Shown here piece after piece: positions 49,024 to 53,090 of a stretch of 64,000 nt of DNA (position 1 is its first letter; each line of letters begins with the position of its first letter). Made by a program: the position numbers and the translations under genes. Under the pieces are notes generated by a model. That model worked only from the letters and a program-made list of their open reading frames with translations, was not told the origin of the DNA and searched no databases. This stretch comes from Myxococcales bacterium (GTDB lineage Bacteria; Myxococcota; Myxococcia; Myxococcales; Anaeromyxobacteraceae), in the NCBI GenBank assembly GCA_021806645.1, contig JAJZQX010000001.1:186001-250000 (forward strand), read 5' to 3'.

Positions 49024-49134
49024 CGGTCGATCAAGAGGTCGTCCCAGCCCGCCAGGCCCATTGCCCGAACCAACCCGCGCCAGCCGTGCCTCCGCCCGCC
49101 GCGGACGCCCGCGCCAGTGGCGCCAGGAGTAGAC

Positions 49135-52100
49135 GTGGAACAGCAGAACGACGCACCGCAGGCCCAACCCGTGACCGAGCTGGCCAAGGGGTACGAGCAC
49201 CGCGAGGTGGAGGCCCGCTGGTACAAGCTCTGGAAGGAGCGCGGCTACTTCCACGGCGACGAGCACGATCGGACCCGGCCGGCCTTCTCCATCGTGCTGC
49301 CGCCGCCCAACGTGACCGGCTCGCTCCACCTCGGCCACGCGCTCACCGCCACGCTGCAGGACATCCTGATCCGCTGGAAGAAGCTCTCCGGCTTCAACAC
49401 CATGTGGCTCCCCGGCACCGACCACGCCGGCATCGCCACGCAGATGGTGGTGGAGAAGGAGCTGAAGCGGACCGAGAAGAAGAGCCGCCACGACCTCGGC
49501 CGCGCCGAGTTCCTGAGGCGGGTCTGGGCCTGGAAGGAGCAGTACGGCTCGCGCATCGGCCAGCAGCACGAGGCGCTTGGCGCCTGCCTCGACTGGGAGC
49601 GCGAGCGCTTCACCATGGACGAGGGGCTCTCCAGGGCGGTGCGCGAGGTCTTCGTGCGCCTCCACGAGGAAGGGCTCATCTACCGGGAGAAGAAGCTCAT
49701 CAACTGGTGCACCGACTGCCGCACCGCGCTCTCCGACCTCGAGGTGGAGCACGAGGAGGCGCACCAGGGCGAGCTCTGGAGCTTCGCCTACCCGCTCGCC
49801 GACGGCTCGGGCGAGATCGTGGTCGCCACCACCCGCCCCGAGACCATGCTGGGCGACACCGCCATCGCCGTCCACCCCGACGACGATCGGTACCGGGCCC
49901 TGGTCGGCAAGAAGGTCCGGCACCCACTCCTGGGGCGGGAGTTCCCCATCGTCGCCGACGCCATCCTGGTCGACCCGAAGTTCGGCACCGGCGCGGTCAA
50001 GGTGACGCCGGCCCATGATTTCAACGACTTCGAGGTGGGCAAGCGCCACGGCCTCGAGTTCATCAACATCCTCGAGCTGGACGGCAAGCTCAACGCCGCC
50101 GCCGGGCCGCTGGCCGGCCTCGACCGCGTCGCGGCCCGCGCCGAGGTGAAGCGGCTCGTCGGCGAGCTGGGGCTCGACCGTGGCGCCCGGCTCCACCTCC
50201 TGCCGCTGGGCCGTTGCCAGCGCTCCCAGACGGTGCTGGAGCCGCTCCTCTCCGACCAGTGGTACGTGAAGATCGCGCCGCTGGCGGGGCCGGCCATCGA
50301 GGCGGTGGAGCAGGGGAAGACCAGGTTCGTCCCCGAGCAGTGGACCAACACCTACATGGCCTGGATGCGCAACATCCACGACTGGTGCATCAGCCGCCAG
50401 CTCTGGTGGGGCCACCAGATCCCGGCCTGGTACTGCCCGGACGGCCACGTCACCGTGGCGCGCCAGACCCCGTCCGCCTGCTCGACCTGCGGGAGCGCCG
50501 CTCTGCGGCAGGACGAGGACGTGCTCGACACCTGGTTCTCGTCCGGCCTCTGGCCCTTCTCCACCATGGGCTGGCCGGACCGGACCGACACGCTCAAGAC
50601 CTTCTACCCGACCTCGGTGATGGAGACCGGCCACGACATCATCTTCTTTTGGGTGGCCCGGATGATGATGATGGGGATCCACTTCATGGGCGAGGTGCCG
50701 TTCAAGACGGTCTACCTCCACCCAATGGTCCGTGACTCCAAGGGCCAGAAGATGTCCAAGACCCGGGGGAACGTCATCGACCCCCTGGTGGTCAGCGAGA
50801 AGTACGGCGCCGACGCGCTCCGCTTCACGCTGGCCGCGCTCACCGCGCAGGGGCGGGACATCAAGCTGGCCGACGAGCGGATCGAGGGCTACCGCGCCTT
50901 CGCCAACAAGCTCTGGAACGCCTCGCGCTTCGCCCTCATGAACCTGGAGGGGCACGTGGACGGCGGCGGCGATCCGCGCGCCGCGGCGCGCACGCCGGCC
51001 GACCGCTGGATCCTGGCCCGGCTGCAGCGGGCGGTGAACGAGACGGTCGAGGCGCTGGAGGCCTTTCACTTCAACGACGCCGCCAACACCGTCTACCACT
51101 TCGTCTGGCACGAGCTCTGCGACTGGTACATCGAGCTGTCCAAGGAGGCGCTCTCCGCCGACGACGCCGGGAAGAAGGCGGCGGCGCAGGCGGTCCTGGT
51201 CCACTGCCTGAAGACCAGCTACCTGCTGCTCCACCCCTTCATGCCCTTCATCACCGAGGAGCTCTGGGGCGTGCTGCGGACCCGCGTCGGGGCCACCGGC
51301 TGGCCCGACTCGATCATGGCGGGGCGCTACCCGGCGGTCGGCCCCGTGGACGTGGACGCTGAAAGGGCGTTCACCCCGATCCTCGGCATCATCGCCGCCA
51401 TCCGGAACATCCGCGGCGAGATGAACATCGCCTTCAAGGTGGCGCTCGGGCGGGCCACCCCGGTCCACGTCGCCGTGGCCGATACCGCCACCCACGCCTT
51501 GCTGCATGCGGGCGAGTCCAGGCGGATCTCCCGGCTCACCAACGTGGAGCACCTGCAACTCCATCTCGCCGCCGCCACCCCGCGCGTGCCACAATCGGCC
51601 GTCGGCGTCGGGAACGGCTTCGAGGTCCGGGTTCCGCTCGCCGGTGTCATCGACGTGGCCGCCGAGACGGCGCGCATCGACAAGGAGCTGGCCAGGGTAG
51701 ACGCCGACCTGGACGGGATCGAGAAGAAGCTGTCGAACCCCAACTTCGTGGCGCGTGCGCCGGCGGAGGTGGTCGAGAAGGATCGGGCCCGCGGCGACGA
51801 GCTGCGGACGACGAGGCAGAAGCTGATCAACCACCGGGCCGTCATGCAGGGCCCGGATCAACCGCCGGAGGAGAAGACCATGGAGACCAACAACCCGAAT
51901 CCGAACCAGTCCAGCCCGCCCGCGCAGCCCGTCGCCGATAGGATGGAGCAGGCCGCCTCGGCGGTGGTCGAGGCGGCCAAGGACGCCATGCAGGCCGTCC
52001 AGACGCAGGCCGGGGAGTTCGAGAAGGCGGCGGCGCCGGTCATCGCGCAGGCCAGGCAGGCCGTGAAGAAGGCCTACGCCAGGGCCAAGAAGGCCGTGAA

Positions 52101-52251
52101 GAAGGCCGCCAAGCAGGCGGGCAAGAAGAAGCCAGCCAAGAAGGCCGCGAAGAACGCCGTGAAGAAGAAGGTGGCCAAGAAGAAGGTCGCCAGGAAGGCC
52201 GTGAAGAAGGTGGCCAAGAAGAAGGGCGGCAAGAAGGGCAAGAAGAAGTAA
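49135..52251 (+). CDS. valS: valyl-tRNA synthetase with in-frame histone H1-like tail
   Basis: A 1038-residue protein from GTG 49135, chosen for AGGAG five bases upstream; a GTG at 49117 is possible. ValRS attaches valine to tRNA-Val. Signature 1 is PPPNVTGSLHLGHALT (HLGH 65-68); signature 2 is KMSKT (539-543) in SKGQKMSKTRGN. The editing domain, the WDW-like DTWFSSGLWPFSTMGWP and the C-terminal coiled coil (ETARIDKELARVDADL, FVARAPAEVVEKDRARG) are normal. The family should end near residue 910; here the frame continues through a Lys/Ala-rich, H1-like tail of about 120 residues with an internal start signal. nadC begins two bases after the stop. Confidence 0.95.
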   Translation: MEQQNDAPQAQPVTELAKGYEHREVEARWYKLWKERGYFHGDEHDRTRPAFSIVLPPPNVTGSLHLGHALTATLQDILIRWKKLSGFNTMWLPGTDHAGIATQMVVEKELKRTEKKSRHDLGRAEFLRRVWAWKEQYGSRIGQQHEALGACLDWERERFTMDEGLSRAVREVFVRLHEEGLIYREKKLINWCTDCRTALSDLEVEHEEAHQGELWSFAYPLADGSGEIVVATTRPETMLGDTAIAVHPDDDRYRALVGKKVRHPLLGREFPIVADAILVDPKFGTGAVKVTPAHDFNDFEVGKRHGLEFINILELDGKLNAAAGPLAGLDRVAARAEVKRLVGELGLDRGARLHLLPLGRCQRSQTVLEPLLSDQWYVKIAPLAGPAIEAVEQGKTRFVPEQWTNTYMAWMRNIHDWCISRQLWWGHQIPAWYCPDGHVTVARQTPSACSTCGSAALRQDEDVLDTWFSSGLWPFSTMGWPDRTDTLKTFYPTSVMETGHDIIFFWVARMMMMGIHFMGEVPFKTVYLHPMVRDSKGQKMSKTRGNVIDPLVVSEKYGADALRFTLAALTAQGRDIKLADERIEGYRAFANKLWNASRFALMNLEGHVDGGGDPRAAARTPADRWILARLQRAVNETVEALEAFHFNDAANTVYHFVWHELCDWYIELSKEALSADDAGKKAAAQAVLVHCLKTSYLLLHPFMPFITEELWGVLRTRVGATGWPDSIMAGRYPAVGPVDVDAERAFTPILGIIAAIRNIRGEMNIAFKVALGRATPVHVAVADTATHALLHAGESRRISRLTNVEHLQLHLAAATPRVPQSAVGVGNGFEVRVPLAGVIDVAAETARIDKELARVDADLDGIEKKLSNPNFVARAPAEVVEKDRARGDELRTTRQKLINHRAVMQGPDQPPEEKTMETNNPNPNQSSPPAQPVADRMEQAASAVVEAAKDAMQAVQTQAGEFEKAAAPVIAQARQAVKKAYARAKKAVKKAAKQAGKKKPAKKAAKNAVKKKVAKKKVARKAVKKVAKKKGGKKGKKK
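51880..52251 (+). CDS. histone H1-like Lys/Ala-rich protein, internal in-frame start within valS
   Basis: ATG 51880 is in frame with valS (codon 916) and is preceded by GGAGGAG (51867-51873) six bases upstream, an almost perfect ribosome site. The product would be 123 residues: METNNPNPNQSSPPAQPVAD, a helical stretch (ASAVVEAAKDAMQAVQTQAG), then about 65 residues of AVKKA/AKKK repeats as in bacterial histone H1-like DNA-binding proteins. It could be made separately, only as the ValRS tail, or both. No stop codon separates the two parts in the sequence given. A lost stop codon or a sequencing error are alternatives. Confidence 0.6.
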   Translation: METNNPNPNQSSPPAQPVADRMEQAASAVVEAAKDAMQAVQTQAGEFEKAAAPVIAQARQAVKKAYARAKKAVKKAAKQAGKKKPAKKAAKNAVKKKVAKKKVARKAVKKVAKKKGGKKGKKK

Positions 52252-52253
52252 CC

Positions 52254-53090
52254 GTGGCGCGGCTCTCCGCCCACGCCGAGCGGCTGGTGGAGCTGGCGCT
52301 CGAGGAGGATCTGGTCCTCGGCGACGCCACCAGCGAGGCCACCATCGAGGCCGCGGCGCGCGGCGCGGCCCGGTTCCTCGCCAAGGAGGAGCTGGTCCTC
52401 GCCGGCAGCGCGGTCGCCGTACACGTCTTCGAGCGGCTCGGCTGCACCTGCCGCTTCGACGTCGAGGACGGCGCGCGGGTGGCCTCCGGGACCTGGTTCG
52501 GCCGGGCGGAGGGGCCGGTGCGGGGGCTGCTCGGCGCCGAGCGGACCGCGCTAAACTTCCTGCAGCGGCTCTCCGGCGTGGCCACCACCACGCGACGCTG
52601 CGCCGATGCCCTGGCGGCCGGTGGAGGCAAGACCCGCCTGCTCGACACCCGCAAGACCACGCCGGGCTGGCGGCTGCTGGAGAAGGCCGCGGTCCGGGCC
52701 GGCGGCGGCACCAACCACCGCGTCAGCCTGGGCGACGGCGTGCTCATCAAGGACAACCACGTGGCCGCCTGCGGTGGGGTGGGCGAGGCGGTCCGGCGGG
52801 CGCGGGCGCGGGCCGGGGCCATGCTCAAGATCGAGGTGGAGGTGGTGGACCTGCCCGGGCTCGACGCCGCCATCGCGGCCGGGGCCGACATCGTCCTCCT
52901 CGACAACATGACCGACGAGGCCATGGCCGCCGCGGTGCAGCGGGCCGCCGGCCGGGTGCTGCTGGAGGCCTCCGGCAACATGACGCTGGAGCGGCTCCCC
53001 CGCGTGGCCGCCACCGGGGTCGACTTCGTCTCGATGGGGGCGCTGACCCACTCGGCCCGGGCGGTGGACATCTCGCTGGAGCTCGCCTGA
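52254..53090 (+). CDS. nadC: nicotinate-nucleotide pyrophosphorylase (carboxylating)
   Basis: A 278-residue enzyme that converts quinolinate and PRPP to nicotinate mononucleotide in de novo NAD synthesis. GTG 52254 follows the valS stop by two bases. Family motifs: [59 protein letters not shown] (contacts quinolinate and phosphate, about 124-152), [29 protein letters not shown] and [18 protein letters not shown]. All are intact. Probably co-transcribed with valS. Confidence 0.96.

Follow-up and report, generated by a model that had tools for sequence, protein, structure and literature searches.

In-frame internal products as such are of a known kind (PMC11899642). In the Haloferax gene cas8b an in-frame internal start yields the C-terminal product Cas11b (PMC11899642), and SpaO gives SpaO-short in the same manner (PMC13059759). 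AlgP of Pseudomonas aeruginosa, an H1-like protein with KPAA repeats, attaches to DNA and sets the spacing of polyphosphate granules (PMC9239181). Among the tRNA synthetases, the cyanobacterial ValRS carries an appended CAAD domain that anchors the enzyme to thylakoid membranes (PMC4893482), while human LysRS has a disordered N-terminal domain that interacts with tRNA (PMC6213541).

The gene analysed here is the valS of a myxobacterium, located within a window of 64,000 nucleotides (the whole stretch of DNA that was analysed). It occupies 49117–52251 of the forward strand as a single frame running from GTG to TAA, and encodes 1044 amino acids (~116 kDa). The homology to ValRS stops at around residue 905, at the end of the final conserved domain, the tRNA-binding coiled-coil arm (Pfam PF10458, residues 846–905, 51652–51831, forward strand). 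The frame then passes without a stop into a basic C-terminal tail, as the initial annotation had claimed and as both the sequence and the list of open reading frames bear out. The length of about 120 residues given there agrees with the 123 residues that follow the internal ATG described below; counted from the end of the ValRS homology the tail is rather longer, at ~130 residues. Its C-terminal 64 residues (52057–52248, forward strand) form a Lys/Ala-rich repeat region with 30 lysine and two arginine residues, and neither aspartate nor glutamate. The tail has the H1-like composition of the Hc1, HC2 and AlgP type, with low-complexity Lys/Ala repeats and few or no acidic residues, and with it ValRS has a computed pI of 9.2, compared with 6.5 for the enzyme without it.

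The fusion itself is already present in existing annotation. The curated NCBIfam model NF011492 (PRK14900, valine--tRNA ligase) takes in the tail, since its match extends over residues 19–1044 (1845.7 bits; curated cut-off 1783). Pfam scans of the tail gave no H1-like family and nothing meaningful, a search of its own genome with Pfam Hc1 (PF07432) gave no match, and the CAAD domain is absent from the Pfam and NCBIfam matches of the valS product. The tail has no other match in its own genome, and a search of 13 genomes for a second copy gave only the valS copies in genus g1 and hence no stand-alone paralogue, though the low complexity of the sequence weakens this search. A search of plasmid DNA gave no match. 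Downstream lies a nadC-like gene (52254–53090, forward strand; named from its own sequence), with a GTG start two bases past the valS TAA (52251–52254) and a weak Shine–Dalgarno sequence (−4.1 kcal/mol). Given the weakness of this site and the two-base gap, its translation is possibly coupled to termination of valS or of the free tail.

The linker that precedes the tail (codons for QPPEEKT, 51859–51879, forward strand) holds an internal ribosome-binding site in its DNA. The Shine–Dalgarno sequence GGAGGAG (51867–51873, forward strand) is followed by AAGACC and then by ATG 51880, which lies in the valS frame. It opens an in-frame internal gene of 123 codons (51880–52251, forward strand), encoding a candidate free H1-like protein of 13.0 kDa and pI 10.7. 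The arrangement of site, 6-base spacing and in-frame ATG is just as initially reported, and it stands above chance. The pairing of ATG 51880 with the anti-Shine–Dalgarno sequence (−9.5 kcal/mol) is the strongest among all ATGs of the valS frame, and is stronger than that of the candidate starts of seven genes of the window (−0.7 to −7.0 kcal/mol); one mid-gene GTG in valS pairs at −9.8 kcal/mol, above ATG 51880. For 28 loci, drawn from lineages that possess such a tail ATG, pairing of −9.3 kcal/mol or stronger is found at 26 of the 28 tail-start ATGs, compared with three of the 399 in-frame ATGs of valS bodies. Families f5 and f7, the majority of fused lineages in f1 (apparently Anaeromyxobacteraceae) and several genera of f4 (apparently Myxococcaceae) have a Shine–Dalgarno sequence ahead of the first in-frame ATG of the tail. 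GGAGG is reached in each of the three codon phases, xxG-GAG-Gxx (encoding EE, RED or REG), AGG-AGG (RR) and GGA-GGx (GG). A start codon and a ribosome-binding site are thus conserved at the level of the nucleotides. The internal start looks selected, and in some lineages selection would appear to act on the nucleotides of the GGAGG site and not on the encoded residues.

It is probable that this one gene gives rise to two in-frame products: ValRS with its tail, and a separate H1-like protein of 13 kDa. Ribosomes initiating at 49117 would make ValRS with the strongly basic tail. This is probably disordered and, adjoining the tRNA-binding coiled-coil arm, would most likely add non-specific affinity for tRNA, rRNA or DNA. 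Ribosomes initiating at ATG 51880, by way of GGAGGAG inside the coding sequence, would make the tail alone. The free tail would be a small nucleic-acid-binding protein, H1- or AlgP-like, made in step with valS transcription. Use of the internal start in this organism is our inference, as is the binding of nucleic acid by the two forms.

Alternatively the fused ValRS could be the sole product, with GGAGG and the ATG being either a by-product of a Glu/Arg-rich linker or a programmed pause for ValRS folding; this seems to us unlikely. The linkers are indeed rich in Glu and GC. Synonymous resampling is not significant in the valS of the window (p = 0.53) or in most lineages other than g4, as GGAG arises easily from Glu codons. 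Within genus g4 (Anaeromyxobacter) both Arg codons are AGG in nine out of nine loci, where AGG makes up 1.6% of the Arg codons of valS, and resampling gives p values of 0.0004 to 0.007; locus L028 gives p = 0.02. A pause would need neither an ATG 5–8 bases downstream nor an unstructured window. The region from −30 to +33 around the internal ATG has a folding energy of −9 to −18 kcal/mol; most windows of the gene body fold more strongly, and in most loci the region is among the least structured tenth of these. Tails that lack the start have a median folding energy of −24.6 kcal/mol and are not unusually unstructured, these controls coming mostly from another family, which limits the comparison, with L018 and L019 as controls from the same family. 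The linkers of start-less tails also argue against a by-product, as they are structured and rarely SD-like (of 510 codon positions, 16 or 3% have a strong site).

The 3′ end of valS was read in 124 Myxococcales genomes from 44 genera. The tail is fused in 110, absent from 12 and encoded by a separate gene in two (G131 and G132); some of the fused entries are interrupted by contig ends, and the genomes share ancestry so that the counts are not independent. Fused tails are present in several families of the order, including in single-contig genomes; outgroups such as Polyangium are tailless. Within the genus of the window, the fusion and its site recur in G001 and G002, and G003 has no tail. The initial annotation had considered a recent loss of a stop codon between two adjacent genes. 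Such a loss, or a sequencing or assembly error that fused two genes in this genome, was rejected on the basis of the order-wide survey and can be given almost no credence. The tailless G003 would fit it, but the fusion is widespread in the order, occurs in many independent assemblies, is shared with an identical site by the two further genomes of the genus, and is part of PRK14900.

The internal start is more variable than the fusion. Among the 110 fused genomes it is strong in 34 and has a weak Shine–Dalgarno sequence in 36, while 40 have no ATG start; the last group includes two genomes of genus g16 in which GTG replaces the ATG and the Shine–Dalgarno sequence is intact. The weak class comprises mainly Myxococcus- and Corallococcus-like genera, where GGAG derives from a conserved APE motif. 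The predicted start of the free form is strong in Anaeromyxobacteraceae and their relatives, and weak or absent in many Myxococcaceae. Because many of the latter have no ATG or only a weak site, the free form is not required everywhere. Persistence of the fusion where the internal start is absent is what would be expected if tailed ValRS were the only product. It also bears on the opposite proposal, that the free H1-like protein is the sole functional product of the tail and its fusion to ValRS a tolerated, functionless read-through. This is very unlikely: many lineages are fused without a start, the opposite being seen in one genus, the stop-free fusion is found in 110 of the 124 genomes, and linker length varies between loci always by whole codons so that the frame is kept. 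The viable separate state of G131 and G132 and the same-genus tailless ValRS (L005) are the points in its favour.

In G131 and G132, which belong to one genus, valS terminates ...LSRI-TGA and the next open reading frame, encoding the basic protein, opens CCTGGAGGAACG-ATG-SERTPEEM. The DNA following the TGA reads CCT GGA GGA ACG ATG TCC GAG AGA ACA CCG GAA GAG ATG. In G097, their sister on the ValRS tree with a support of 100, the corresponding segment is RI-KPEGT-MSEKTPEEM, fused in frame, and RI and M are equally many codons apart in all three. Most simply, the separate gene starts at the ATG homologous to that of the fused tail, which is difficult to reconcile with a fused ValRS as sole product. 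The Shine–Dalgarno sequence is retained in the split genus while the residues over it have changed from PEGT (G097) to PGGT. On the tree the split genomes branch from among fused ones, so the simplest reading is the gain of an in-frame stop; the alternative is that a stop was lost in G097. On the same tree, made by a quick method that gave long-branch warnings, the five states of tail and start require 15 changes and the strong Shine–Dalgarno state alone requires nine. Tail and start have therefore been lost on repeated occasions, and possibly regained. Since fusion without a start is common and the split rare, the fused form is more widely retained and appears more constrained than the free product.

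The stable dual-coding design that the initial annotation had offered as its other possibility is favoured by the conservation of site and ATG, their independence of codon phase, the AGG codons, the low structure and the natural split; it does not hold as a universal arrangement, many Myxococcaceae being fused without an internal start. On balance we favour valS as a two-product gene in much of the order, which would make a ValRS tethered to nucleic acid together with a free H1-like protein that binds RNA or belongs to the nucleoid, the amount of the latter tied to synthetase expression and the two splittable by a single in-frame stop.

The tails differ in other respects. A short TPR-like motif, DHHDLGVAYMSMGLVDDAMREF, lies between the linker and the basic region in L142, L145, L027, L151 and other tails of f4, f2 and f3, which are Myxococcaceae-like lineages. 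It matches Pfam TPR_2 weakly (E = 0.025), using an approximate query in which the first two residues (EE) differ from L142. Long Asp/Glu-rich stretches precede the basic repeats in L150, L152 and L155 (genus g29) and in L146 and L156 (g27), and might mask the basic part of the tail at these loci. In the single-contig genome G050 a frame change and a TAG end the tail before its TPR-like and basic parts (L187 and L272), which is either a genuine truncation or an error. A second, divergent valS-like gene accompanies the tailed valS in G091:C4 and G093:C24; the second copy in G093 (L231) is without a basic tail. The record BNCN01000007.1 (L094), titled Comamonas sp. KCTC 72670, contains a Myxococcus-like tailed valS and is probably misnamed.

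Our search of open-licence papers found none on the valS tail or its internal start, and a tRNA synthetase gene with a conserved in-frame start for an H1-like product appears to be undescribed there. If true, a housekeeping tRNA synthetase gene would contain a conserved in-frame internal start, with a natural split as a control, and myxobacteria would gain a small basic protein hidden by annotation of the fused gene. As the same tail could be compared among close relatives in fused, free, split or absent form, it also offers a clean test of why enzymes of bacteria bear H1-like tails.

PRK14900 describes the same protein with its tail included, and the model is silent on the internal start and on the function of the tail. 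The CAAD-bearing ValRS is similar in that a domain has been appended to this enzyme in one bacterial lineage, but CAAD is a membrane anchor whereas the tail is highly basic. Human LysRS shares a disordered appended extension with an RNA-binding role, as predicted for the valS tail; it is a different, eukaryotic enzyme in which the extension is N-terminal and there is no separate product from an internal start. AlgP is the likely analogue of the free product, having the same Lys/Ala-rich composition resembling the tail of H1. It is however a protein in its own right that binds DNA and has an H1-like domain at its C-terminus, outside any synthetase, and no sequence family uniting AlgP with the valS tail was found. 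Cas11b and SpaO-short correspond in that one gene gives both the complete protein and, from an internal in-frame start, its C-terminal part, as predicted for valS. The valS case differs from both in that the host gene encodes an essential tRNA synthetase and the predicted short product resembles H1.
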